DNA from: Pedosphaera sp.
GTDB lineage: Bacteria > Verrucomicrobiota > Verrucomicrobiia > Limisphaerales > UBA1100
NCBI GenBank assembly: GCA_009695465.1
Contig: SIAW01000004.1
Span: forward strand, 1-56,333
Direction of reading: 5' to 3'
DNA length: 56,333 nt
Position 1 is the first letter of the stretch. Every line of letters begins with the position of its first letter. Positions 37 to 38,278 of the stretch are shown one piece after another. Position numbers and translations under genes: made by a program. Under the pieces are notes generated by a model. That model was not told the origin of the DNA, did not search any database, and worked only from the letters and a program-made list of their open reading frames with translations.

Positions 37-1149
37 TCAAAGTGCCGCCGCAATGGCGTCGCCCATCTCTCGCGTGCCGACTTTTTTCGCGGTGGGATCG
101 GCGGTGGAGTAGATGTCGCCGGTACGCAGGCCGTTGGCGATGGCTTTGCTGACGGCGGCGTCGATGGCGTCGGCAGCGGCGTTCTGTTTGAAGCTGTAGC
201 GGAGCATCAGCGCGGTGGAGAGGATTTGCGCGATGGGGTTGGCGAGGTTCTTGCCGGCGATGTCTGGCGCGGTGCCGCCGGCGGGTTCGTAAAAACCAAA
301 AGTCTGTTCGCCACTGGTCGCGCCGAGGCTAGCGCTGGGCAGCATTCCGAGCGAACCGGCGAGCGCGGCGGCTTCGTCGGAGAGGATGTCGCCGAACATG
401 TTTTCGCAGAGCATCACGTCGAACTGCGTCGGGCGCAGCATCAGTTGCATCGCGCCGTTGTCCACGAACATGTGGTCGAGCGCCACGTCGGGATACTGCT
501 TGGAAACCTTCGTCACCACATCGCGCCAGAGCACGCCGTTCTCCAGCACGTTCGCCTTGTCGATGCTGCAGACTTTTTTACGGCGAAGCTGCGCGGCCTT
601 AAACGCGACGTGCGCGATGCGTTCAATCTCCGGCGTGGTGTACACCATCGTGTCGATCGCGCGCAGATGGCCGTTGCCGATGTCCTCGGTCTTTTTCGGC
701 TGACCAAAATACATGCCGCCGGTCAACTCGCGCACGACGAGCATGTCGATGCCGTCGCCCTGGCGCTCCTTCGAGAGCGGGCAGGCGTGGGCGAGTTCCT
801 TGGGCAATCGCACGGGGCGCAGATTGGCGAAGAGACCGAACTCCTTGCGCAGACGCAACAGCGCGGCGCGCTCGGGACGTTCCTCCTTCGGGATGGACGG
901 ATCGCGATCGGGCAATCCGACGGAGCCGAACAAAATGCAATCGCTCAGTTTGCAAAGCGCGAGCGTGGCGTCGGGCAACGCCTTGCCCGCGGCGTCAATG
1001 CCCGCCCAGCCAACGGGCGCTTCGGTGATGTCGAACCGCAGCGCGAACTTCTTCTCGACTGCGCGCAGCACTTTGATGGCTTCGCGCATCACCTCGGGGC
1101 CGATGCCGTCGCCAGCGAGCGCGGCGATTTTGAAAACGGAGTTGCTCAT
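37..1149 (-). CDS. leuB: 3-isopropylmalate dehydrogenase
   Basis: Oxidatively decarboxylates 3-isopropylmalate to 2-oxoisocaproate in leucine synthesis, using NAD and a divalent metal in the cytoplasm. The 370-residue product has the family N-terminus (IAALAGDGIGPEV), the substrate-binding arginine region (LRLRKEFGLFANLRPVRL), the metal-binding stretch VDNGAMQLM followed by GDILSDEAA, and the NAD-binding GSAPDIAGK-like segment EPAGGTAPDIAGK. I chose the ATG at 1149 (MSNSVFKIAAL); the frame stays open upstream, but that extension has no family similarity. The length fits the family. The 36 bases beyond the stop, at the window edge, show no feature. Confidence 0.95.
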   Translation of the reverse strand: MSNSVFKIAALAGDGIGPEVMREAIKVLRAVEKKFALRFDITEAPVGWAGIDAAGKALPDATLALCKLSDCILFGSVGLPDRDPSIPKEERPERAALLRLRKEFGLFANLRPVRLPKELAHACPLSKERQGDGIDMLVVRELTGGMYFGQPKKTEDIGNGHLRAIDTMVYTTPEIERIAHVAFKAAQLRRKKVCSIDKANVLENGVLWRDVVTKVSKQYPDVALDHMFVDNGAMQLMLRPTQFDVMLCENMFGDILSDEAAALAGSLGMLPSASLGATSGEQTFGFYEPAGGTAPDIAGKNLANPIAQILSTALMLRYSFKQNAAADAIDAAVSKAIANGLRTGDIYSTADPTAKKVGTREMGDAIAAAL

Positions 1150-1232
1150 AAAAACAGGCGGCGAGATTAGGCGCACCGCGCGGGTTGGTGAAGGAAATTT
1201 GCAGGCGCCGCGCGCTCGACGAACAAATTCCA

Positions 1233-1261
1233 TTGACCCTTGCACGGCGCGTTTCTACTGT
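1233..1261 (+). promoter_or_regulatory. sigma70-type promoter for the DUF5069 gene
   Basis: TTGACC at 1233-1238 and TACTGT at 1256-1261 are separated by 17 bases, matching five of six and three of six consensus positions. A purine-rich ribosome binding site (AGGAAA) lies about 7 bases before the ATG at 1298. The spacing is ideal but the -10 box is only moderate, so this is a prediction. Confidence 0.5.
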
Positions 1262-1297
1262 CGCGACCGGTAACCCTAACATATCAGGAAACAGACT

Positions 1298-1738
1298 ATG
1301 TCCAAATACGTTCCTCTCATCAGTTCCGGCACCAAAGGTCCGCTGGGTGTGCTGCATCTCCCGCGCCTCTGGCAAAAGGTCTCGCTGGAATGCGCCGGCA
1401 AGTTGGCGGATGGCTATCCCGGCATCGGCCAAGGCTACGACATGATGGTCATCAACGCGCTCGGCTTGAAGGCCGACGATGTGAAGCACTACATCCAAAG
1501 CCACAAGCCGACCTATCCGCAGTTCGAGGCGTGGGTGAAGAAGCACGCGACGCATCACACGCGCGCGGACATCCACAAGCTGAACGTGGCCATTGCCGGC
1601 TACATCCACAGCGATGAAACGCGCCACGCCATCTTGAAGGCCAACGACCTGCACGATGACGGCTCAGTGTTGCCCGACGCGGTGAACCTGAACAACCTCG
1701 ACGACTGGCACGAGTTCCACGCGGCAGTGTTGAAGTAA
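1298..1738 (+). CDS. DUF5069 domain-containing protein
   Basis: A 146-residue cytoplasmic protein of unknown function. It has the layout of DUF5069 proteins, which are common in Verrucomicrobia and Planctomycetes: an N-terminal LPRLWQKV segment, a central 'GQGYDMMVINALGL' region and a C-terminal half rich in acidic and aromatic residues. There is no signal peptide or membrane segment. It appears monocistronic, with its own promoter (1233-1261), a clear AGGAAA ribosome binding site and a strong terminator directly downstream. The family call is from memory of its pattern; no biochemical role can be read from the sequence. Confidence 0.75.
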   Translation: MSKYVPLISSGTKGPLGVLHLPRLWQKVSLECAGKLADGYPGIGQGYDMMVINALGLKADDVKHYIQSHKPTYPQFEAWVKKHATHHTRADIHKLNVAIAGYIHSDETRHAILKANDLHDDGSVLPDAVNLNNLDDWHEFHAAVLK

Positions 1739-3156: not shown

Positions 3157-3942
3157 GTGGCCACACGCCTGCTCCAAATTGCCGACCGCACCTTTACCTC
3201 GCGCCTGCTGCTGGGCACGGGCAAGTTTGCCTCGCCGGAGTTGATGCGCGATGCGCTGGTCGCCAGCGGCGCGGAGATCGTGACGGTGGCGTTGCGCCGC
3301 GCCGATCTGTCCGGCAAAAAAGATCCCTTCGCCAACATTCTTGAATTCATTGATCCGCAGCGCTACCTGATTTTGCCCAACACCAGTGGCGCAATGAACG
3401 CGGCGGAAGCGGTGCGACTGGCGCGACTGGCCGCTGCGGCGGGGTTGCCCAAATGGGTGAAGCTGGAGATTCATCCAGACCCGCGTTATCTCCTGCCCGA
3501 TCCCATCGAGACTTTTATCGCCGCGCAACAGCTCGTGAAAGAAGGGTTCACCGTGTTGCCGTACATCAATGCCGATCCGGTGCTGGCCAAGCGCCTACAG
3601 GAAATCGGCTGCGCCACGGTGATGCCGTTGGGGGCGCCGATCGGTTCCAATCGCGGTGTGCAGACGCGTGATCAAATCCGAATCATCCTCGATCAAGCCA
3701 CCGTGCCGGTGGTGGTGGACGCAGGATTGGGCGCGCCCAGCCACGCTGCTGAGGCGATGGAACTGGGCGCCGACGCCGTGTTGATTAACACCGCGATTGC
3801 CGTTGCCGCTGATCCCTGCCGCATGGCGATCGCGTTCAAACAGGCGGTGGAGGCCGGCCGCGCCGCGTATGAGATTGGGATGGCGGAGCAATCCGCCACC
3901 GCCAATGCCACCAGTCCATTGACGGGGTTCCTCACGCAATGA
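3157..3942 (+). CDS. thiG: thiazole synthase ThiG
   Basis: Forms the thiazole phosphate ring of thiamine from 1-deoxyxylulose 5-phosphate, dehydroglycine and sulfur carried by ThiS. The 261-residue (beta/alpha)8 protein shows [10 protein letters not shown], the Schiff-base lysine region WVKLEIHPD, the phosphate-binding [13 protein letters not shown], and [24 protein letters not shown] in short consecutive blocks typical of ThiG. It starts with GTG at 3157 without a clear ribosome binding site. No thiS, thiF or thiH lies nearby. Its stop overlaps the next start by ATGA, so it is the first gene of a coupled operon that otherwise concerns LPS sugars, CTP and folate. Confidence 0.95.
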
Positions 3943-4952
3943 GCGAACTTTCCCTACCACGCACCCGCGAGTTGTTGCATGCGGCAGTTCGCGCGCGTGT
4001 GCTGGTCGTGGGCGATGTGATGCTCGATCAGTTCATTCGCGGTCGCGTGGCGCGCATCTCGCCGGAGGCTCCGGTGCCCGTGCTGGATTTTGAGGATGAA
4101 CAATTCATGCCCGGCGGCGCTGCCAACGTGGCGCGCAACCTGACCGCGCTGGGTGCGCAGGCGGAAATCTTCGGTGTCGTGGGTGACGACCCTTCCGCTG
4201 CGCAGTTGCGCGGGTTGTTGTCGCGCGAAAAGGTGGGCGCAAAGGGACTGGTCGCCGAGCGCGGGCGCATGACCACGCGCAAGGTTCGCATCATCGCTCA
4301 TCATCAACACATCGCGCGGGTGGATCGAGAAACCCGCAGCATCATCCGCGACGACACGCAGCAGCGAGTGCTGGCAGCCGTGCGCCGCGCGTTGCCACGG
4401 GCTGATGCCGTCATCGTGGGTGATTACGGCAAAGGCATGATCACGCAGCCGTTGCTGAATGAACTCAAGCGACTGTGCCGCGCGCAGGGTGTGTGGCTGG
4501 GGCTGGATCCCAAGCCCGTGCACGCGATCAAACTGCAGGGGCTTTCGCTCATCACGCCGAACCGGAAAGAGACGTTCGAGTTGGCTGGCCTGTCCGACAC
4601 CACGCGCCATGCGGATCCGCTGCGTGATGCGGGACTGCGCCGGGCGGCGACACGATTGCTGACCAAGCTGCGGCCGGAGGTGCTACTGATCACGTTGGGC
4701 GAACAGGGCATGCTGTTGTGCCGTCGCGGCCAGCGTCCGTTGCATGTCGCTACGGCCGCGCGCGAGGTGTTTGATGTCTCCGGCGCAGGCGACACGGTGA
4801 TCGCCAGTTTCACATTGGCGATGACAGCGGGTGCGACGCCGGAGGAGGCGGCCGTGTTTTCCAATCACGCCGCCGGCGTGGTGGTGGGCAAGGTGGGAAC
4901 GGCGACAGTCACGCCGGCCGAGATGCTGGCCAGCTTCGCGTCGCAGCCATGA
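3939..4952 (+). CDS. rfaE1: D-glycero-beta-D-manno-heptose-7-phosphate kinase
   Basis: PfkB/ribokinase-family sugar kinase that phosphorylates heptose 7-phosphate at C1 in ADP-heptose synthesis for the LPS inner core. The 337 residues cover only the kinase domain of HldE; the adenylyltransferase domain is absent. Motifs seen are [21 protein letters not shown] near the N-terminus (two blocks), [24 protein letters not shown], and the catalytic DVSGAGDT near residue 275. ATGA overlaps at both ends couple it to thiG and gmhB. The missing adenylyltransferase must be encoded elsewhere. Confidence 0.92.
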
Positions 4953-5493
4953 AGCGCGCGGTGTTTCTGGATCGGGACGGCACGTTGAATGTGGAGCGCA
5001 ACTATTTGTCGCGGCCGGAGGATTTGGTGTTGCTGCCCGGCGCGGGCGCGGCACTGCGCCGGCTGCAGGATGCGAATTTCTTGTTGTTCATCGTCACCAA
5101 TCAATCGGGCATCGGGCGCGGTTATTACACCGAGGCGGACATGCACCGGGTGAATGAACGGCTCGGCGCGGAGTTGGCGCGCGACGGAGTGCGCTTCCAG
5201 AAAATCTATTATGCCGCCGAGGCGCCCGAGCAGCCCAGTCGCGGCCGCAAGCCCAGCCCGCAGTTTCTGTGGGATGCGCGGGATGAGTTCGGTCTCGACC
5301 TTTCGCGCAGTTACATGGTCGGGGACAAGATGATTGATCTGGAGTGCGGCTGGAACGCGGGCGTGAAGGCGAGCATCCTTGTGCGCACCGGCTACGGCAC
5401 TGAAGTGGAGCAGGCGGCATCCCCCAATCTTTCGCGGGCAATCGTGAAGGATGATCTGGCGGCGACCGCAGCGTGGATATTGGAGCAGCAGGA

Positions 5494-5497
<4 letters not shown>
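4949..5497 (+). CDS. gmhB: D-glycero-beta-D-manno-heptose 1,7-bisphosphate 7-phosphatase, GmhB-like
   Basis: HAD-superfamily histidinol-phosphatase-type enzyme of 182 residues, predicted to remove the 7-phosphate after the RfaE1 reaction. Motif I is FLDRDGTLN, followed by VTNQSGIGRGYYTE, and motif III/IV is MVGDKMIDLECGWNAGVK. Classical GmhB carries a zinc-binding C/H/C/C loop before the GRKP lysine motif. Here the loop reads AAEAPEQPSRGRKP, with no cysteine, so it looks like a zinc-free variant. ATGA overlaps on both sides, and the operon context (rfaE1, kdsB) supports the role. Confidence 0.88.
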
Positions 5498-7841
<2,344 letters not shown>

Positions 7842-28884: not shown

Positions 28885-29030
28885 AGCGAACTTGTTAACA
28901 CTATTGGCAGTGGTTCACAAATGATTTCTCTGGAAAATTCAGCGGGCCTGCTGGGTTGCGTCGGGGCACGCGCTGCGTTAGGCTACGTCCAGAAAATGGA
29001 GATGCGCAAAGAGCGTTTCAACTTCCGCTG

Positions 29031-29621
29031 ATGGCCGCCGCGCAACGGATCGGATTGTTTGGCGGGTCCTTCGACCCCGTCCACTTGGGGCACGTCATGG
29101 TGGCGCGCGCCGCGATTGAGGAGCTGCAGCTCACCCGGCTTTTTCTCATCCCCGCCGCGCGTTCGCCCTTCAAGACCGATGAAACGCCCGCCGCCGCGCC
29201 TCATCGTCTGCGCCTGTTGCGATTGGCGTTTGCCGGTTGGAACGATTGCGAAGTGGACGCGCAAGAGATGGCCCGCGACGGCGCCTCCGCGTCGTACAGC
29301 ATCAACACCGTGCGCGATTACGCTGCGCGATTCACGGGGGCGTCCCTGCATTATCTCATCGGTGCCGATCACGTCCCTACTTTGCCGCAGTGGCGTGAGG
29401 CTGCCGCGCTTGCTGCGCTGGTGACGTTCGCCGTCATGTCGCGTCCCGGAGAAACGCCGGTGGATTTCCCCGCGCCATTCCACGGCACTTGGCTGCGTGG
29501 CCAGCCGATGGCGGTGGCGGCTTCCGACATTCGCCGGCGCGCACGCGCTGGTTTGTCCATTGATCACTTGGTGCCAGCCGCCGTTGCCGGTGCCATCCGC
29601 GAATTGAAATTGTACACTTAA
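29031..29621 (+). CDS. nadD: nicotinate-nucleotide adenylyltransferase
   Basis: Transfers AMP to nicotinate mononucleotide in NAD synthesis. The 196 residues have the nucleotidyltransferase motif IGLFGGSFDPVHLGHVMVA, IPAARSPFK, LHYLIGADHVPTLPQWRE, and a C-terminal ASDIRRRARAG in place of the usual ISSTxIR motif. Start ATG 29031; the upstream frame to 28956 has no similarity. It ends TAATG, overlapping the rsfS start by one base, so the two are coupled. Confidence 0.93.
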   Translation: MAAAQRIGLFGGSFDPVHLGHVMVARAAIEELQLTRLFLIPAARSPFKTDETPAAAPHRLRLLRLAFAGWNDCEVDAQEMARDGASASYSINTVRDYAARFTGASLHYLIGADHVPTLPQWREAAALAALVTFAVMSRPGETPVDFPAPFHGTWLRGQPMAVAASDIRRRARAGLSIDHLVPAAVAGAIRELKLYT

Positions 29622-29989
29622 TGAAACCCAAAGAACTCGCCCAACTCTGCCGTGAATATGCCGACTCTAAAAAAGCCGAGGACATCGTTGTGCTCGATGT
29701 GAGCGGCGTGTCGAGCATCACGGATTATTTTGTCATCGCCACTGCCAACAGCGAGCCGCACGTCCGCTCCATCTGGCATGAGATTGTGGATCGTTTGCAG
29801 CGCGACCACGGCCAGCACGCGGGCAAACCTGAAGGCGCGCAGCAAAGTCAGTGGGTCGTCGTTGATTACTTCGACGTCGTGGTGCACGTGATGGTGAAGC
29901 GCGTGCGCGAGGAGTATAACTTGGAAGGGCTGTGGAACGATGCCACGGCGGTGCGCCCGCCCGTTCGCCGTCGCGCTAAGAAGTTGTGA
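29621..29989 (+). CDS. rsfS: ribosomal silencing factor RsfS
   Basis: Binds ribosomal protein L14 (uL14) and blocks subunit joining, silencing translation in starvation. The 122 residues carry the family pattern KKAEDIVVLDVSGVSSITDYFVIAT, WVVVDYFDVVVHVM and the late YNLEGLW block, in separate short stretches. The nadD-rsfS pair is conserved in many bacteria. Its stop lies 14 bases inside the converging membrane-protein gene. Confidence 0.95.
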   Translation: MKPKELAQLCREYADSKKAEDIVVLDVSGVSSITDYFVIATANSEPHVRSIWHEIVDRLQRDHGQHAGKPEGAQQSQWVVVDYFDVVVHVMVKRVREEYNLEGLWNDATAVRPPVRRRAKKL

Positions 29990-30563
29990 GCACGCCCAGC
30001 CGTCCCCGTGCGGACTTATTGCGCGCGCCGTTGCCCACGACCCACGCCGTGGCACCGAAGTAAATCAACAGCAACGCCGCCGCTGCGACAAAGCCCCCTT
30101 CAGAAACCCGGTGCCACTTCGCGTGCTCGGCCGTGGCCGCTGTGGTGGCCGCGCTGGCAGGAGTGGCCGGACGCGCCGCTGCAGTCTGCGGCGTGCGCTG
30201 AAAATATTCTGGATACTTCTGGCGCAGCAACGACTCCATCTTGGGAGCCAGCCATTGGCCGCCGCCGCCCACCAATCCACCGATAAGCAGCAGCAAGAGG
30301 AGGCGCCATTTGGGAAATGCAATCTTGCCAATCCCCCACTCCAACAGCAGCAACGCAAGCGCCGCGCCTGCGCAGATGTACTGCGCCAGATAACAGCGCT
30401 GAAAGAAAATCTGGCCGGCCTGTCCCTTCGCCGCCTTCTCCGGCAGCAGGCTGTTGACCTCCGGCGCGGTGAAAATCGTCATCGCCACGATGAACATAAA
30501 CACCGCGATGCCCAGCCATACGCCCGTGTTGAGCAGAGAAAGATAACGCAGCAAGTTCACCAT
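29976..30563 (-). CDS. membrane protein, DUF4149-like
   Basis: A 195-residue protein with four predicted helices: about 10-32 (TGVWLGIAVFMFIVAMTIF), 58-76 (YICAGAALALLLLEWGIG), 85-102 (LLLLLLIGGLVGGGGQW) and 158-178 (GGFVAAAALLLIYFGATAW). A hydrophilic region sits between the third and fourth. The 'WLGIAVF....APEV..LL...AG' pattern resembles the DUF4149 family; the function is unknown. It is divergent from ftsK. Start ATG 30563. Confidence 0.65.
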   Translation of the reverse strand: MVNLLRYLSLLNTGVWLGIAVFMFIVAMTIFTAPEVNSLLPEKAAKGQAGQIFFQRCYLAQYICAGAALALLLLEWGIGKIAFPKWRLLLLLLIGGLVGGGGQWLAPKMESLLRQKYPEYFQRTPQTAAARPATPASAATTAATAEHAKWHRVSEGGFVAAAALLLIYFGATAWVVGNGARNKSARGRLGVLTTS

Positions 30564-30663
30564 CGGGCCGCACGGTACGAGATGCCCGCCGGAGTGCCAA
30601 GCCCTGATTGGCGCGAGGTTTTGGATTGTCACAAGGCGGCCGGCAGTGGTTTACTACTCGCGG

Positions 30664-33600
30664 ATGGCGAACAAGGAGGCCACGGAGAAACCCGTACAGG
30701 AAAGCTATGGCGAAGTCGTCGGCATGGTTTTGTTTTTTCTAGCGGTGCTGCTGTTGCTGGCCCTTTTCTCTTTCGACAAACACGACCTCGCCTTCAACGG
30801 CACACAGGTCAACGCCGCGCGGCACAACCTCGTGGGCGTGGTGGGCGCGTGGGTGGCGCAGATTGCTTTTCTCGCGGTGGGCGCTTCAGCGTACCTGCTG
30901 CCGCCGCTGCTGCTGCTCTTCGCGCTGGCCGCATTTTTTGAAAAGCTGGAGGCGATGCGCCGGCGCTGGCCGTGGGCGGTGGTGTTGGTGCTCAGTTGCA
31001 CGGCGGCGCTGAGTTTGCATCACGGACCATTCGATGAACTGGCCCGCCGATTGGGCGCGACGGATCCGGGAGGCTTCATCGGCACGCTGCTCAACCGCTA
31101 CATCTTCATCAACGTCGGCACGGTCGGCGCCAGTATCATCCTCATCTGTCTGTACGGAGTGAGCCTGCTGTTCCTCACCCATTTTCGTTTGGTGGAATGG
31201 CTGGGAGAACGATGGACTGCGTGGCGCGCGCCCCAGGACGCAGCGGCCGCGCCGCTCACCGCGGACGAAGCAGCATTGTCCGAGCGCGCTCAGGCGTTGG
31301 CGCAGCAATATCGCGAGTTGCAGAAGGAATTCGAGAAGGCCAATCAGACGCTCGGAAATATTGTCGGCAACAGCACCACCATCGCGCCCATGGCCAATCC
31401 TGCTGATCCCGTCGGGCCAAGTCTGGGTGCGGATTTGAAGCCGGTGCCCGAGCCGACCGTGCGCGATCTGAGCATGCCCGTGTCAAAGAAGCCCGCGACG
31501 GATGGCCCCACGCGTCAGCTCGCGGCCATCATGTTCACCGACATCGCCGGCTACACGCGCTTGTCCAACCGCGACGAGAAGGCGGCGATGAAACTCATCA
31601 AGCAGCAGCGCAAATTGCTGCGGCCGATCGTGGAGGAGTTCGAGGGCGAATGGCTCAAGGAGATCGGCGACGGATTGCTGCTGAGTTTCCCCAGCTCGCT
31701 CAACGCGGTGAACTGCGCGGTGCGCATTCAAGAGGCGGCGCGCGCGGTGCCGCATCTGAACCTGCGCATCGGTGTGCATCAAGGCGACATCGTGCGCGAG
31801 GGCGGCGACATTTACGGCGACGGTGTGAACATCGCTTCGCGCATCGAAAAATACGCGCCGGTGGGCGGCATCGCCGTGTCCGAAAAAATCCAGCAGGACA
31901 TCTCCAGCCATCCGGAGATCAATCTGGAACTGCTCGGCGAATTTGAATTGGAAGGCGTGGATCAGCGTGTGGAGGTGTTCACGGTCACCTCCAATCTGAA
32001 AGATCCGCTGGACGAAACCAAGTTGGTCGAGCCGTCGGCACCCGCTGTTCCGGTGGAGGCTGTGGCAAAAGGCCCCGCCACGATGGAGGAAATATTGGGC
32101 ATCGTGCCGGTGAAGTTCAAAGTTAAAGCGAAATCCAAACCGCTGGCCGTGGCGGCCACGCCGTTGATCGGCAATTACCAACTGCCGCCGCGCGAGCTCT
32201 TGAAGGTGCCCGAGCCGAGCAAGATCCCTTCAGAAACCAAAGAGGAGATGATGGCCAACTCGCGCCTGATGCAGCAGACGCTGGCGCAGTTTGGCATCGA
32301 GGTCGCGATGGGCGACATCACTAAAGGGCCGACCATCACGCGCTACGAATTGCATCCGGCGCCCGGCGTGAAGCTGGAAAAGATTGTCGCCCTCTCCAAC
32401 AACATCGCTGCGGCGCTGCGCGCGGAGCGCATCAATATCCTCGCGCCAGTGCCCGGGAAAAGTTCCGTGGGCGTGGAAGTGGCCAACCGTTCCAAGTGCA
32501 TGGTGTCGATGCGCGACTTGCTGGAGTCCGACGAGTGGAGCAAGACCAAGGCCCGCATTCCCGTGGTCATCGGCAAGGACGTTTACGGCAACGCCATCAT
32601 CTCCGATCTGGCCGAGATGCCGCATCTGCTCATCGCCGGCGCGACGGGCGCGGGCAAGAGCGTCTGCATCAACACCATCATCGCCTCGCTGCTCTACCGC
32701 TTCTCGCCCGACCAACTGCGCTTGGTGATGATTGATCCCAAGGTGGTGGAGTTGCAGATGTACAACACCCTGCCGCATCTGGTCGTGCCGGTGGTCACCG
32801 ATCCCAAGAAGGTGATCCTCGCATTGCGCTGGGTGGTGTTGGAGATGGAGAAGCGCTACAAGATTTTCGCCAAGGTGGCCGTGAAGAACATCGCCGGTTT
32901 CAACACCCGCTCGCGCGACAAGGTTGTGCTTGCGGTCGAGCAGGACCTGCCGCTGTACGCCGACAAGGAGAAGGGCGACGCCAATTCCAGCGGATTCGCC
33001 GTGGAGGTGGACGAGGAAATTGTGGTGCCGCGCGAGGAGGAGATTCAGATTCCCGATCAGCTCAGCTACGTCGTCGTGGTCATTGATGAGTTGGCCGATC
33101 TGATGTTGTCTGCGCCGGCCGATGTGGAGATGGCCATCGCGCGCATCACGCAGATGGCGCGCGCGGCGGGCATCCACTGCATCGTGGCCACGCAGCGTCC
33201 CAGCGTGGATGTCATCACCGGCGTCATCAAAGCCAACATCCCCGCGCGCATCGCGTTTCAGGTGGCGTCGAAGGTGGATAGCCGCACGATCATTGACAAG
33301 ATGGGGGCCGAGAAATTGTTGGGCAAAGGCGACATGCTTTACATGCAGCCCTCCGCCGCGCAGCCGATACGCGCGCAGGGTGCGCTGGTGACCGATCAGG
33401 AAATCCAAGCCATCGTGGATTTCATCGCCAAGCAAGGGAAGCCTTCGTACGAGATGGACATTCACCAGCAACTCTCCAAGCCGGAAAATGAATTTGGGGC
33501 TGGCTCCAGCGGAGAGGACGAAGAGTTGATCAACAAGTGCATCGAGGTCATCCGCTCTGAGCAGAAGGCCAGCGTGTCGCTGCTGCAACGCCGGCTGCGT

Positions 33601-33735
33601 TTGGGCTACACCCGCGCGGCGCGCATCATGGATGATCTGCAAGAGCGCGGCATCGTCGGGCCCAACAAGGGCGCCGAGCCGCGTGACATCTTGATTGATC
33701 TCGACGTCGCCGCCAACTTGCCGGCCCGCCACTAG
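30664..33735 (+). CDS. ftsK: FtsK/SpoIIIE DNA translocase with an internal class III adenylate cyclase domain
   Basis: A 1023-residue fusion. The N-terminus has about four helices (around 18-37, 57-93, 101-119, 150-175), as in FtsK. A short coiled-coil linker (around 200-232) precedes a complete class III cyclase domain at about 283-441. Its metal aspartates are D293 (MFTDIAGYT) and D336 (GDG), the adenine-selecting pair is K332 and D382, and the transition-state residues are N389 and R393 (VNIASR); their K-D, D-N and N-R spacings of 4, 7 and 4 are canonical. The FtsK alpha/beta motor follows, with Walker A GATGAGKS at 659-666 and Walker B VVVVIDE ending at 809. The C-terminal gamma winged helix (around 950-1010) would read chromosome-orienting sequences. 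Predicted activities are DNA pumping at the division septum and cAMP synthesis from one chain. Start ATG 30664; a GTG six codons upstream is possible. The frame is uninterrupted. Confidence 0.93.
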   Translation: MANKEATEKPVQESYGEVVGMVLFFLAVLLLLALFSFDKHDLAFNGTQVNAARHNLVGVVGAWVAQIAFLAVGASAYLLPPLLLLFALAAFFEKLEAMRRRWPWAVVLVLSCTAALSLHHGPFDELARRLGATDPGGFIGTLLNRYIFINVGTVGASIILICLYGVSLLFLTHFRLVEWLGERWTAWRAPQDAAAAPLTADEAALSERAQALAQQYRELQKEFEKANQTLGNIVGNSTTIAPMANPADPVGPSLGADLKPVPEPTVRDLSMPVSKKPATDGPTRQLAAIMFTDIAGYTRLSNRDEKAAMKLIKQQRKLLRPIVEEFEGEWLKEIGDGLLLSFPSSLNAVNCAVRIQEAARAVPHLNLRIGVHQGDIVREGGDIYGDGVNIASRIEKYAPVGGIAVSEKIQQDISSHPEINLELLGEFELEGVDQRVEVFTVTSNLKDPLDETKLVEPSAPAVPVEAVAKGPATMEEILGIVPVKFKVKAKSKPLAVAATPLIGNYQLPPRELLKVPEPSKIPSETKEEMMANSRLMQQTLAQFGIEVAMGDITKGPTITRYELHPAPGVKLEKIVALSNNIAAALRAERINILAPVPGKSSVGVEVANRSKCMVSMRDLLESDEWSKTKARIPVVIGKDVYGNAIISDLAEMPHLLIAGATGAGKSVCINTIIASLLYRFSPDQLRLVMIDPKVVELQMYNTLPHLVVPVVTDPKKVILALRWVVLEMEKRYKIFAKVAVKNIAGFNTRSRDKVVLAVEQDLPLYADKEKGDANSSGFAVEVDEEIVVPREEEIQIPDQLSYVVVVIDELADLMLSAPADVEMAIARITQMARAAGIHCIVATQRPSVDVITGVIKANIPARIAFQVASKVDSRTIIDKMGAEKLLGKGDMLYMQPSAAQPIRAQGALVTDQEIQAIVDFIAKQGKPSYEMDIHQQLSKPENEFGAGSSGEDEELINKCIEVIRSEQKASVSLLQRRLRLGYTRAARIMDDLQERGIVGPNKGAEPRDILIDLDVAANLPARH

Positions 33736-33780
33736 GCTTTTGGCTTTCCGACTCGTGTGGCGGCGGGTAATCATTCTGCC

Positions 33781-34500
33781 ATGACCACCATCGCGACCGA
33801 ACCCGCCTACAAAGTCTGGGCCGTGGACGATGTCGTGTACGGGCCCGTATCGCAGTCGGTGGTGCTGGAGTGGATCGCCGAACAGCGCATCGTGGCGGGC
33901 ATGTGGCTCTATCCCATGGCCAGCAAAAAGTGGCTGAAGGCCGGCGACCTGCCCGAGTTGCAGGAGACGCTGGCCAGCGCACTCGCTGCGGGATTGACCG
34001 CGCCCGTCGTCGTGTCGCCGCTGGTCGCAGGCGTGCCGGTGGGGGCGCTGCGCAAGGTGGCGATGCTCTCGGCGATGAACGATCAACAGTTGGGCCGCTT
34101 CGCGCAGTTCATGGAAATCGCCAAGGTGACGCAGTTCGAGCTGGTGGTGGAGCACGGCGATCCGGGCGATGCGATGTACGTGGTGCTGGCCGGTTCGCTG
34201 CGCGTGCGCCAGATGGTGGCCGGCAAAGAAACGGTGATCGCCACGTTGCGCGTCGGCGATGTGTTCGGCGAAATCTCGCTGTTCGATCAAGGCCCGCGCT
34301 CGGCCGATGTGTTGGCCAACGAAGACAGCACGCTGCTGGTCATCGGGGCAGATCGCTTTGTGGAGTTCACGCAGAAGATGCCCGAGGTGGCGCTCTCGCT
34401 GTTGCTGGCGATCAGCCGCACGATGGCCAGTCGCATCCGCGCGGACAACGAGCGGCACAAGCAGGACCTGCTCGTGTTGCAAAACGTGAAGCAGCACTGA
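33781..34500 (+). CDS. GYF_2 and cyclic nucleotide-binding domain protein
   Basis: A 239-residue protein with a GYF_2-type domain at about 9-60 (VVYGPVSQSVVLEWI, then KKWLKAGDLPEL) and a cyclic nucleotide-binding domain at about 105-235. The phosphate-binding cassette is FGEISLFDQGPRSADV, with Glu164 and Arg173 as ribose- and phosphate-binding residues; Ser174 follows Arg as in cAMP-binding proteins. There is no helix-turn-helix, so it is not a CRP-type regulator; GYF-like domains usually bind proline-rich peptides. It begins 45 bases after the FtsK-cyclase stop with no terminator between. I infer it is the cAMP receiver of that cyclase. Confidence 0.88.
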   Translation: MTTIATEPAYKVWAVDDVVYGPVSQSVVLEWIAEQRIVAGMWLYPMASKKWLKAGDLPELQETLASALAAGLTAPVVVSPLVAGVPVGALRKVAMLSAMNDQQLGRFAQFMEIAKVTQFELVVEHGDPGDAMYVVLAGSLRVRQMVAGKETVIATLRVGDVFGEISLFDQGPRSADVLANEDSTLLVIGADRFVEFTQKMPEVALSLLLAISRTMASRIRADNERHKQDLLVLQNVKQH

Positions 34501-34514
34501 CGGGCGCGCGTGCG

Positions 34515-35306
34515 CTAGATCGTCAGTCGCTGGTTGTCCTCCACGAACGTGAAGGGGATTTTTCCAAGCTGCGATTGGGCCAGCCCTATCAGTTCAGCGC
34601 GGCGTTCACGCCATTTCCCACCGACATGCGTGAAGGCGATTTGCTTGATGGGTTTGTCCGCCAAAAATTGGAAGAGCTGCGCCGGCTCGCAATGCGCGAC
34701 TTCGCACAGCAACAGATCCAGCGGTTGCGCCACCAACGGATGCAGGTCGTGCAAGCCGCCGATGTCGCCGCTGTGGGCGATGCGTTTGCCTGCGCCTTCG
34801 ATCGCGATGCCGAACGCCTCAAATTTCTGCGGGTGTTTAGCACCGTGCGCCGCGCGCAGTCCCTCCAAGTGCGTCGAGTAATGCGGCGTGAGAATCAGCC
34901 CGTCGCCGGTGATGGGCGTCGCGCATTGCCACGGCTGCCAGTCCGTGGCGAAGGCCAGCAGCTCGGGGAAGATGTACGAGGCATTGAGCATCTGGCGCAC
35001 GGGCGCTTCGCCTTCGGCGGGCAGATGGATGGTCAACGGCTTTTTGCGGCCGAGCAACCAGAAGCCCTGCATCAACATGAAAATCCCGCCGATATGATCG
35101 CAGTGCAGATGGGTGATGAGAATGCGGTCAATGTCGTCGGCGCCCACGCCATGCGCGCGCAGTTGGCGCGTGGCGGGTTCGCCGCAGTCCACCAAGAGCG
35201 TGACGCCGCCGAGCCGGTAGAGGAAGGCCGAGTGATTGCGATCCGCGCTGGGATGACCGTCGCCGGTGCCCAGACAAGTCAGGGTTGCCGTGTCCATCGT
35301 GCTCAT
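34515..35306 (-). CDS. metallo-beta-lactamase fold hydrolase
   Basis: A 263-residue cytoplasmic MBL-fold enzyme with the zinc motif THLHCDHIGG, then HSGDIGG, a later CEVAH, and a terminal TH motif (AFTHVGG). The overall form resembles RNase Z-like and cyclic-phosphodiesterase-like MBL proteins; the substrate cannot be set from sequence. It converges on the cyclic nucleotide-binding gene with only 14 bases between. Start ATG 35306 (MSTMDTATLTCLGTGDGHPS). Class II cAMP phosphodiesterases share this HxHxDH motif, so a link to cAMP turnover is possible but unproven. Confidence 0.8.
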   Translation of the reverse strand: MSTMDTATLTCLGTGDGHPSADRNHSAFLYRLGGVTLLVDCGEPATRQLRAHGVGADDIDRILITHLHCDHIGGIFMLMQGFWLLGRKKPLTIHLPAEGEAPVRQMLNASYIFPELLAFATDWQPWQCATPITGDGLILTPHYSTHLEGLRAAHGAKHPQKFEAFGIAIEGAGKRIAHSGDIGGLHDLHPLVAQPLDLLLCEVAHCEPAQLFQFLADKPIKQIAFTHVGGKWRERRAELIGLAQSQLGKIPFTFVEDNQRLTI

Positions 35307-35446
35307 CGTTGTGGCGTGACCATGCGCAATGCCCGGACATTCTCTCTGACGCGCCGACCAAATCCAGCGCAAAACAAACGCACGCCTCAGCAACTTTGGG
35401 ATAACTTTTTGTTTTCTGACTTTGGCGAGGCCACTAATTTTTCAGC

Positions 35447-35956
35447 GTGACAAGTGTCGCTGAACAATTGCGCGAGACGCGCAAGCAACGCGGTTGGACG
35501 GTAGCCGATGTGATGGCCCGGACCAATCTCAAGGCCGAACAGATCCAGTGGCTGGAGTCTGGGCGCTGGGACGCGTTTGCTGCGCCGGCCTACGTGCGCG
35601 GCTTTGTGCGTTCTTACGCGCAGCAACTCAAGCTGCCGCTGCAGGAGTTGAGCGGCCTGCTCGACGCGGAGTTGGGGCAGACGGAAAAATTCCGCGAGCT
35701 GCCCGACGTGGCCCATGCGCCCAAGACGTTCCTCAATCGGCTGATGCTCGCCTCCTCGCGCGTGAACTGGAGAATCGCGCTGCCGGTGCTGGTGTTCCTG
35801 GCTTTGGTGGCGCTCACGTATGTCGGTGTCCAAGCTTGGCAACAGCGTCGCCCAACGGACCCGCTCAAAAATCTGGGCACGGGCATGATTGACTTGGACA
35901 AAAAACACACCGACGTGGATCGCCTGCCGCCGAGTCCGGTGCCCACGACCCGTTGA
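35447..35956 (+). CDS. RodZ-like helix-turn-helix membrane protein
   Basis: A 169-residue protein with an N-terminal HTH_25-type domain (LRETRKQRGWTVADVMART, then YVRGFVRSYAQQL) followed by a single transmembrane helix near 107-128 (ALPVLVFLALVALTYVGV). RodZ links the MreB cytoskeleton to the envelope; the HTH in that family binds MreB rather than DNA. The periplasmic part is only about 40 residues, with no DUF4115 domain, so it is a short form. Start GTG 35447. Its position between ftsK and rimO/pgsA is a conserved neighbourhood. Confidence 0.82.
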   Translation: MTSVAEQLRETRKQRGWTVADVMARTNLKAEQIQWLESGRWDAFAAPAYVRGFVRSYAQQLKLPLQELSGLLDAELGQTEKFRELPDVAHAPKTFLNRLMLASSRVNWRIALPVLVFLALVALTYVGVQAWQQRRPTDPLKNLGTGMIDLDKKHTDVDRLPPSPVPTTR

Positions 35957-36019
35957 TTGCGTCCGTCTGCGGTTTCCAAGGTTGATTGCGTCCCGCCCTT
36001 GGCCTACGCTCTGACCCCC

Positions 36020-37606
36020 GTGTCAGAAAATGGAAAACTTCCCACGTTGCGTGTGGGCATGATTTCACTGGGCTGCGCCAAAAATTTGGTGGATGCCGAG
36101 GTCATGCTCGGCTCGTTGCTGGCCGGCGGCGTGGAGATCACCAACGATCCGGCCAACGCCGACGCGCTGATCATCAACACCTGCTCGTTCATCGGCGAGG
36201 CGCAGGAGGAAAGCGTGGACACCATTTTGGAATCGGCAGAGGTGCGCGCCGCGCGCCAGCCCGGGCAGGCGATCATTGTCTCGGGCTGTCTGCCGCAGCG
36301 GTTCCGCGAGGAGTTGCCCAAGTTGTTGCCGGAGGTGGACGCGTTCATGGGCGTGGATCAAGTGAGCGAGGTCGCGGGCATCGTGCGCAGCGCGGTGGCG
36401 CGGCGTCGTCAGATCGCGACCGTTCCGAGTGTCCCTCTTTCGCGCCGCAGGAAAATCGAACTCCCCGCAGTCGCACCCACTGTGCCGACTGCGCCGATCC
36501 ATCAAGTGACCGTGCGGCCCAAGTACGTGCCGGACTTTGCCACGCCACGCTTTCGTCTCACCCCGCGCCATTTTGCGTATGTGAAGATTGCCGAGGGCTG
36601 CAATCATCCGTGCAGCTTTTGCACCATCCCGAGGATGCGCGGCGGGCACCGCAGCCGCACGCAGGCTGATGTGGTGGCCGAGGTGCGGCAACTGCTCAAG
36701 GAGGGTGTCAAAGAGATCAATCTCATCTCGCAGGACGCTACCTATTACGGAATGGATCTGCGGCCGGATCATCGGCCGGGCATTTCCTCGCCCGCCAAAT
36801 TCACCGCCGCCGCCGGCGCGTTGACGGCCGACGCCACGACCTTGTGCACCTTGTTGCGCGAACTCAATGCACTGCCCGGCAAATTCTGGATTCGTTTGCT
36901 CTACACTCATCCGGCGCACTGGACCGATGAATTGATCCGCACCATTGCCGAGTGTCCGAAGGTGGCGCGTTACGTGGACATGCCTTTGCAGCACATCCAC
37001 GATCTGATGCTCGAACGCATGCGGCGCGAGACCGACAGCCGGCACATCCGCGATCTCATCGCGCGCATCCGCGCCGGCGTCCCGGGCATCGCGTTGCGCA
37101 CGACGTTCATCGTGGGGTTCCCCGGCGAGACGGAGCGGTGTTTTGAGACGCTCTTGGATTTCATTGGTGAAACAAAGTTTGAGCGGCTGGGCATCTTTGC
37201 CTATTCGCGCGAGGAGAGCACGCGCGCCGGCGGCATGCGCGGGCAATGCGCCGAGGCGACCAAACAGGAGCGGCGCCAACGCGCGATGGCGGCGCAACGC
37301 GAGGTGTCGCGCGCGATGGGCGCGGCGATGGTGGGCCGCCAGTTGAACGTGTTGGTGGAAGGCACGGCGGAAGGTGCCGCTGCTGAATCTGCCGAGGTGC
37401 GCTCGTGGGAGCACGGGTTGATCCGCCAATCTGCGCCGCGCCAAAAGGCGTTGGGCGCTGGAAAATATCTGGTCGCGCGCGGCGAGTCTGATGCGCCGGA
37501 CATCGATGGCCGTGTGTATGTGCGCGGCGATTTATCCGTGGGCGAATTCGCCGGGGTGCGGGTGGTGGGCCACACTGATTACGATTTGATCGCCGAACCG
37601 ATCTAG
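36020..37606 (+). CDS. rimO: ribosomal protein S12 methylthiotransferase RimO
   Basis: Radical SAM enzyme that adds a methylthio group to an aspartate of ribosomal protein S12. The N-terminal MTTase domain has ISLGCAKNLVDAEVM and the 4Fe-4S cysteines in NTCSFIGEA and SGCLPQ. The SAM cluster is CNHPCSFC (with EGCNHPCSFCTIPRMRG around it) and a C-terminal TRAM-like domain follows. At about 528 residues it is roughly 80 longer than usual; the extra length is a basic/proline insert before the radical SAM core and a second insert around residues 255-290. Start uncertain: GTG 36020 is chosen, and a TTG at 35957 is in frame. Confidence 0.93.
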   Translation: MSENGKLPTLRVGMISLGCAKNLVDAEVMLGSLLAGGVEITNDPANADALIINTCSFIGEAQEESVDTILESAEVRAARQPGQAIIVSGCLPQRFREELPKLLPEVDAFMGVDQVSEVAGIVRSAVARRRQIATVPSVPLSRRRKIELPAVAPTVPTAPIHQVTVRPKYVPDFATPRFRLTPRHFAYVKIAEGCNHPCSFCTIPRMRGGHRSRTQADVVAEVRQLLKEGVKEINLISQDATYYGMDLRPDHRPGISSPAKFTAAAGALTADATTLCTLLRELNALPGKFWIRLLYTHPAHWTDELIRTIAECPKVARYVDMPLQHIHDLMLERMRRETDSRHIRDLIARIRAGVPGIALRTTFIVGFPGETERCFETLLDFIGETKFERLGIFAYSREESTRAGGMRGQCAEATKQERRQRAMAAQREVSRAMGAAMVGRQLNVLVEGTAEGAAAESAEVRSWEHGLIRQSAPRQKALGAGKYLVARGESDAPDIDGRVYVRGDLSVGEFAGVRVVGHTDYDLIAEPI

Positions 37607-37612
37607 CCCGCC

Positions 37613-38278
37613 ATGAATCTGCCCAACAAAATCACGACCTCGCGATTTTTCATCACGGTGATTTTCGTGGTGGTGATGCTGTGGGAATTTCCGCACCACT
37701 ATTCGGTGGCCGCCGCGCTCTTTTTCTTGGGCGGCCTGTCGGACATCGCCGATGGCGAAATCGCGCGTCGTCGCAATCTCAAGACCGACTTCGGCGTGTT
37801 GATGGATCCGTTGATTGACAAGATCATGGTCTGCGCCGGTTTCATCATGTTGATCGCCGCGCCCACGCCCCCGGCGATGGCGCAGGCCATTGCGGCGCTG
37901 GGATTGCCGCACTGGCTGCAGATACCCGGGCCGACGTTGCTGATGCCCGCGTGGATGGTGATCATCATCGTCGCGCGCGAACTGGCGATCACCGGGCTGC
38001 GCTTGTTGGCGGCGAACAACCAAGTCGTGCTCGCCGCCGAATCCATCGGCAAACGGAAGACCAATCTGCAGGTCACCGCTGTCATCGCCATTTTGATTTG
38101 CGTCAGTTATCCGGATTGGGGCGCGGGCGCGCGCAGTTTTTTTGACGCCAAGGTGGGAGTGCTGCCGTGGTCGCTGTGGTTCACACTTTTGGTCACGTGG
38201 GCAGCCGTCGCGCTGACGATGGTCTCGGGCATCCACTATCTCTGGGGCAACCGCGCGCTCTTCTTGAAGGACATGTAG
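37613..38278 (+). CDS. pgsA: CDP-diacylglycerol--glycerol-3-phosphate 3-phosphatidyltransferase
   Basis: Integral membrane enzyme that makes phosphatidylglycerophosphate from CDP-diacylglycerol. The 221 residues include the CDP-alcohol phosphotransferase motif D-x2-DG-x2-AR-x8-G-x3-D-x3-D, visible as SDIADGEIARRRNLKTDFG with MDPLIDK following, plus several hydrophobic helices and the late ARELAITGLR. It lies 6 bases after rimO and 2 bases before pgpA, so product and next step are co-encoded. Confidence 0.95.
   Translation: MNLPNKITTSRFFITVIFVVVMLWEFPHHYSVAAALFFLGGLSDIADGEIARRRNLKTDFGVLMDPLIDKIMVCAGFIMLIAAPTPPAMAQAIAALGLPHWLQIPGPTLLMPAWMVIIIVARELAITGLRLLAANNQVVLAAESIGKRKTNLQVTAVIAILICVSYPDWGAGARSFFDAKVGVLPWSLWFTLLVTWAAVALTMVSGIHYLWGNRALFLKDM

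Follow-up and report, generated by a model that had tools for sequence, protein, structure and literature searches.

A class III cyclase domain within the FtsK DNA translocase of one Limisphaerales family, with a cyclic-nucleotide-binding gene directly behind it

The ftsK gene described here lies in a window of 56,333 nucleotides from Pedosphaera sp. (the whole stretch of DNA analysed; GenBank assembly GCA_009695465.1, contig SIAW01000004.1) and encodes a protein in which a class III cyclase domain occupies the linker between the FtsK membrane region and the DNA motor. The fusion is confirmed and, judged by its residues, the fused domain is a complete ATP-type class III cyclase within the only FtsK found in its own assembly. 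In the genomes searched, sequence comparison places the fusion in a single family only, and the gene that follows codes for a protein with a cyclic-nucleotide-binding (CNB) domain. With slightly better than even confidence, we favour a reading in which the linker cyclase would make cyclic AMP (cAMP) wherever FtsK assembles and the protein of the next gene would bind it. This reading is built on the architecture, its restriction to one family, the intact catalytic residues, purifying selection, and a constant CNB neighbour with no recognisable DNA-binding domain.

The fusion gene and its domains are the following:

30664..33735, forward strand: ftsK-cyclase fusion gene, one open frame with five Pfam domains, 1023 residues
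30709..31200, forward strand: FtsK_4TM membrane region, residues 16-179 (PF13491, E 5.7e-29)
31504..31998, forward strand: class III cyclase domain, residues 281-445, with D293, K332, D336, D382, N389 and R393
32182..32487, forward strand: FtsK_alpha domain, residues 507-608 (PF17854, E 5.1e-28)
32509..33207, forward strand: FtsK_SpoIIIE motor, with Walker A GATGAGKS (659) and Walker B VVVIDEL (804) (PF01580, E 1.3e-64)
33514..33696, forward strand: FtsK_gamma DNA-reading domain, residues 951-1011 (PF09397, E 2.3e-24)

Translation of the frame met no stop, and a GTG upstream, at 30646, is a possible alternative start that would add six residues. A sequence-only reading of this DNA had proposed an uninterrupted frame joining the FtsK membrane region, a cyclase, the AAA+ motor and the gamma domain in one chain; the domain search that it called for bore this out, all five Pfam matches exceeding their curated cut-offs. 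The protein is an FtsK by the presence of 4TM, alpha, motor and gamma on a single chain and by both Walker motifs, which are intact, the motor match spanning residues 616-848. It gives the single FtsK_SpoIIIE match of its assembly, with no second one, and the same assembly holds one tubulin/FtsZ-family match. In an alignment of fusion proteins (rows P0001 to P0049, of which P0001 and P0002 are both the window's protein, leaving 48 distinct proteins), the motor residues Lys665, Asp808 and Glu809 were kept in 49 of 49 rows.

The cyclase was matched by Pfam Guanylate_cyc over residues 287-440 (E 1.4e-13). Its metal-binding Asp pair, its substrate-specifying pair and its transition-state Asn and Arg are all present; the six residues, found at the positions proposed from the sequence alone, were invariant in all 49 rows, and the fold matches that of adenylyl cyclases, as expected of a class III catalytic domain. 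On the claim that the Lys/Asp pair specifies ATP rather than GTP, the residues are of the ATP type (compare K101/D157 of Ma1120); substrate and product are predicted, the product most likely being cAMP. The cyclase part of the fusion is under purifying selection. The only other class III cyclase match in the same genome is a HAMP-containing protein (G000:C18, L125:5278-7515, reverse strand).

The same architecture was looked for in other Verrucomicrobiota genomes, as the sequence-only reading had suggested. An ftsK gene was found in 19 of the 20 genomes of the window's GTDB family, the only genome with no match (G015) being 50% complete, and the cyclase lies inside ftsK in all 19. Among the 18 family genomes besides the window's, 15 carry 4TM, cyclase, motor and gamma in one open reading frame (ORF); in G012 and G018 only the gamma end is missing, as their contigs stop there, and in G017 the gene is spread over two contigs. 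With the window's included, cyclase and motor share one open frame in 18 family genomes. An assembly join, which the sequence-only reading had named as one outcome that would overturn it, is thus ruled out, since separate assemblies share the same junction; its other worry, a lack of close relatives with this architecture, falls away because such relatives exist.

Outside the family, the comparison took in 40 unfused ftsK genes of the order, spread over 32 other families, and none has a cyclase inside. In searches of genomes of the order and of the phylum, in which the best five candidates per genome were scored, none of the matches listed outside the family among the 146 genomes of the order spans the cyclase; one match, in G126, begins at residue 396, yet its locus (L088) shows no cyclase. 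In the 387 genomes of the phylum, 17 had a match at E 1e-30, with cyclase and alpha in one FtsK-length frame only in the own genome; the other 16 match one part at a time, and the row of G416 runs from cyclase into linker, but in a frame of 352 residues. Searching 5.8 billion proteins for matches to residues 281-615 gave 48 fusions (P0002-P0049, the window's own being P0002) among the best 120 of 7163 matches, all with cyclase, alpha and motor, at 386-711 bits, after which the next score drops to 225; as only these best 120 were listed, more distant fusions may exist. All five Pfam domains were found in 45 of the 48, the other three (P0003, P0011 and P0049) being shorter. The fused FtsK motors form one clade (support 100/99; 14 fused rows chosen from the 49, and 40 unfused), and the fused cyclases one group (support 96/89; 24 fused and 45 other cyclases), in trees whose bootstrap had not fully settled in either case.

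The site of the insertion can be followed in the linker between 4TM and alpha, which in the window carries two further features:

31261..31362, forward strand: predicted long helix, residues 200-233 (AlphaFold helix 200-233; predicted local distance difference test, pLDDT, in blocks of 62-80 over 201-230)
31423..31479, forward strand: linker motif LGADLKPVPEPTVRDLSMP, residues 254-272, common to most unfused FtsKs

A charged stretch similar to the helix is present at the same place in unfused FtsKs, and the cyclase of the window starts shortly past the motif PVPEPTVRDLS. The pattern P[VL]PxPxx[RQ]DxS was found in 35 of 40 unfused FtsKs and in 6 of 14 fused ones, the other eight fused proteins having a shorter form where printed, e.g., PRIIDLSQP. 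4TM and alpha lie 300-360 residues apart in the 14 fused proteins and 138-247 apart in the 40 unfused relatives.

The strongest contextual clue to the purpose of the fused cyclase, absent from the sequence-only reading, is the gene directly behind ftsK:

33781..34500, forward strand: GYF-like and CNB protein, 239 residues (PF00027, E 6.5e-21)
33805..33987, forward strand: GYF_2-like N-terminal part (Pfam on relatives below the cut-off; model pLDDT 83-91 for residues 11-70)
34264..34308, forward strand: phosphate-binding cassette FGEISLFDQGPRSAD, FGE...RSAD conserved

In all 19 genomes, this CNB gene comes directly after the fused ftsK and shares its strand. Its ATG lies 45 bases past the ftsK stop in the window, and the nearest in-frame ATG 41-179 bases past it in all 17 loci measured; between the two genes in the window, a scan found neither a promoter-like nor a terminator-like site on the forward strand. 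The protein is the only PF00027 match of its assembly. The cassette Glu and Arg of FGE...RSAD are kept in 18 of 18 family proteins, and Asp replaces the Glu in 7 of 19 GYF-CNB proteins outside the family. GYF_2 was matched by Pfam on three of five relatives scanned, all under the cut-off (E 2.5e-5 to 8.9e-4), and the window's protein gave no GYF_2 match at 0.01. No helix-turn-helix (HTH) domain was detected in it by Pfam, that is, it shows no C-terminal DNA-binding domain of the CRP/FNR kind, and its model ends in a long helix (201-238). From these features, the GYF-CNB protein is likely a receptor that would bind the cAMP of the cyclase on the spot. The PVPEP-type linker motif was considered as the ligand of its GYF-like part, a proposal left unsupported because the FtsK of G039 (L082) has the motif in a genome with no CNB match.

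Convergent with the CNB gene is a metallo-beta-lactamase (MBL)-fold gene:

34515..35393, reverse strand: MBL-fold hydrolase (PF12706)

Its HLHxDH motif is invariant in 14 of 14 sequences, and relatives occur in 28 of 97 genomes of the order, three of them from the own family. Its nearest solved relatives are mixed (Apyc1, YhfI-like, RNase Z and arylsulfatase), and NCBIfam ranked RNase Z first, below its cut-off. YhfI prefers cAMP/cGMP according to the available passages of the Apyc1 paper (PMC9117128), and a phosphodiesterase role is possible for the window's hydrolase. Over 28956-38275 of the window, ftsK is flanked by nadD, rsfS and a DUF4149 gene on one side and by a RodZ-like HTH gene, rimO and a CDP-alcohol phosphatidyltransferase gene (pgsA-like) on the other; this order is kept in most family loci of sufficient length, with an exception upstream in L033 (G019). 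Profile searches of 40 unfused ftsK loci, two of which end right behind ftsK, found no CNB gene, no MBL gene and one separate cyclase gene; neighbour counts were taken from profiles, single-sequence queries being weak for cyclases (20 bits versus 214 by Pfam for the cyclase of locus L207). So far, these comparisons indicate that both the fusion and the ftsK-CNB pair are peculiar to the window's family, which argues for a functional link, yet within a single evolutionary history.

Apart from ftsK, two genomes of the same family (G018:C58:7358-8223 and G019:C75:8767-9632) have a second cyclase gene adjoining a small CNB gene on the opposite strand. Small CNB genes also lie within a few kb of class III cyclase genes in Thermoplasmata archaea (L166, L173 and L177), directly after the cyclase in L166.

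Class III cyclases act as dimers whose two active sites lie at the interface, and FtsK acts as a hexamer; assembly of the ring would therefore pair six cyclases into three active dimers, which would sit between the membrane anchor and the motor. The cAMP so made would signal the presence of assembled, or pumping, FtsK at the septum. Since no DNA-binding domain was seen in it, the GYF-CNB protein would read this signal by protein contact, turning cAMP into a protein-protein event at the septum in which a partner is bound or released through the GYF-like part, rather than into transcription. The MBL-fold hydrolase may end the signal by removing cAMP, and this is the least certain step. On sequence grounds, it is likely that the DNA pump signals from the division site while sorting chromosomes. 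We put forward more tentatively, at somewhat under even confidence, that FtsK hexamers closing on trapped septal DNA might trigger their own cAMP synthesis, and that a dedicated non-transcriptional receptor might convert this burst into a division checkpoint. It has long been asked how the division machinery learns of the state of chromosome segregation, and a signal generator inside the DNA pump, together with an adjacent candidate receptor, would, if true, make this question testable with purified parts. Bacterial cAMP is known mostly through transcription control of the CRP type; here, if the proposal is true, it would gain a local role at the division site.

The same parts allow the signal to run inward. 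The cyclase and the CNB protein could mainly regulate FtsK itself, the cAMP-bound GYF-CNB protein braking or licensing the translocase in a local feedback. The position of the receptor gene directly behind ftsK, as well as its lack of a visible DNA-binding domain, fit this equally, and the sequence evidence does not separate it from signalling outward; one possible interface, from GYF-like part to linker motif, is not supported by co-distribution (G039), and we consider this feedback rather unlikely, although the most credible of the alternatives. Somewhat less probable still is that the cyclase makes cAMP constitutively, with FtsK as a mere membrane anchor and the CNB neighbour as an ordinary operon partner. 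Class III cyclases do sit on many carriers, the nearest relatives of the fused ones being carried on TPR, WD40 and kinase proteins, and the own genome has its HAMP-type cyclase as well; however, if FtsK were no more than an anchor, loss or exchange would be expected in some genomes, and the cyclase was kept in FtsK in all 19. Captured domains can also end in regulatory use, so that the domain could by now have ceased to be an enzyme and serve the FtsK ring as a module for nucleotide binding or dimerisation; the invariance of six catalytic residues, needless for a pure scaffold, and the adjacent CNB gene in every one of the 19 genomes make this improbable.

A Pycsar-like anti-phage system, with a pyrimidine cyclase and a CNB effector, is very improbable. 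PADLOC did match the cyclase weakly to PycC (E 3.4e-4) and the CNB domain to PycTIR (E 7e-14), but the PycTIR matches cover the CNB part only, and neither a TIR domain (by Pfam) nor another effector part, such as the transmembrane effector that may accompany PycC, was seen in the CNB protein. Moreover, the cyclase has the ATP-type Lys/Asp pair, and no FtsK other than its host protein was found in the genome; the gene is family-wide as a clade, unlike a mobile defence gene. That an assembly or binning artefact joined two genes can practically be dismissed: the named family genomes are metagenome-assembled, but the junction recurs in separate assemblies, 18 of them with cyclase and motor in one ORF, and database proteins from several sources are 56-86% identical to the window over residues 281-615.

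Several observations weigh against the outward signal that we favour. Synthesis of cAMP, septal location and the receptor role are all proposed from sequence, and the full-length AlphaFold model of the fusion is poor and mostly unreliable (mean pLDDT 49.9). The ratio of nonsynonymous to synonymous substitution rates (dN/dS) of the cyclase exceeds that of the motor in three of the four computable pairs, and the HAMP-type protein gives the genome a second class III cyclase. Being a single clade, the fusions share one origin, so the 19 genomes do not prove 19 times over that the cyclase and the CNB gene belong together; the genes flanking the pair are also syntenic in the family.

The history of the CNB gene adds to this. 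The GYF-CNB family predates the fusion and its relatives are widespread in the order, where CNB proteins are common (some match in 137 of 146 genomes). Among the matches listed outside the family, full-length GYF-CNB proteins show 28-54% identity, and no match adjoins ftsK; the family members form one clade (SH-aLRT 96). In 8 of 19 fetched loci outside the family (L106-L109, L111, L112, L118 and L122), the GYF-CNB gene directly follows a shared gene of about 600 residues, an arginyl-tRNA synthetase in the three scanned (L107, L111 and L118); among named loci away from ftsK, it stands directly behind that gene in 1 of 23. In G040, which has an unfused ftsK, about 2 kb separate it from an HTH-rimO-pgsA cluster that resembles the one following the family's ftsK, and thus the new place of the CNB gene may be partly old synteny.

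Likewise, cyclase genes near ftsK are not unique to the window's family; only the fusion is. In L207 (G095:C18:43500-55000), the unfused ftsK (3278-6001, reverse strand) has an MBL relative 0.9 kb off (6906-7814, reverse strand) and, about 1.9 kb away on the other side, a gene for a response regulator with a class III cyclase (183-1409, reverse strand) that is not close to the fused cyclase (20 bits). L068, one of the 40 unfused loci, has its separate cyclase gene 3.4 kb from ftsK. These two loci may be chance or remnants of an older ftsK-cyclase neighbourhood. In sum, the interpretation given by the sequence-only reading is partly supported, with cyclase activity and its coupling to DNA pumping as predictions.

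That reading had also known of no described FtsK-cyclase fusion, and in agreement, none was reported among the matches listed in the open-licence PubMed Central literature (a collection without most subscription papers and preprints); the available passages of PMC8195603 mention FtsK and cyclase domains separately, not fused together. One functional comparison is DmxA of Myxococcus xanthus, a diguanylate cyclase that, in the accessible text of PMC11255338, is recruited to the division site and becomes active late in cytokinesis; proximity labelling found it enriched with FtsK, although the authors doubt direct recruitment by FtsK. It is likewise a second-messenger synthase at the division site, a location only proposed for the fused FtsK, but a separate c-di-GMP enzyme and not a cAMP-type cyclase within FtsK. 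In Xanthomonas campestris, the class III cyclase gene XC_0250 is linked to XC_0249, a CNB receptor gene reading its product (PMC3770947, as far as its available text goes); there, the product is cGMP, the receptor has a GGDEF domain and no FtsK is involved. A guanylate cyclase of Toxoplasma fused to P4-ATPase domains (described in the available part of PMC6592433) similarly places a class III cyclase on an ATP-driven membrane machine, in this case in a eukaryote, with a P-type ATPase as the machine and cGMP as the product. The CNB protein of the window shares the CNB fold and the phosphate-binding cassette with CRP/FNR and PKA-R, and differs in its GYF-like N-terminus and in that no DNA-binding or kinase-inhibiting part was seen. 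In contrast to the class III adenylyl cyclases Ma1120, Rv1900c/LipJ and 3mr7, the carrier here is a chromosome translocase, which has 4TM, alpha, AAA+ motor and gamma in the canonical order of E. coli-type FtsK/SpoIIIE and differs from it by the linker cyclase, a class III domain of about 165 residues. FtsK and cyclase domains are each known; their union, and the putative receptor gene attached to it, are new.
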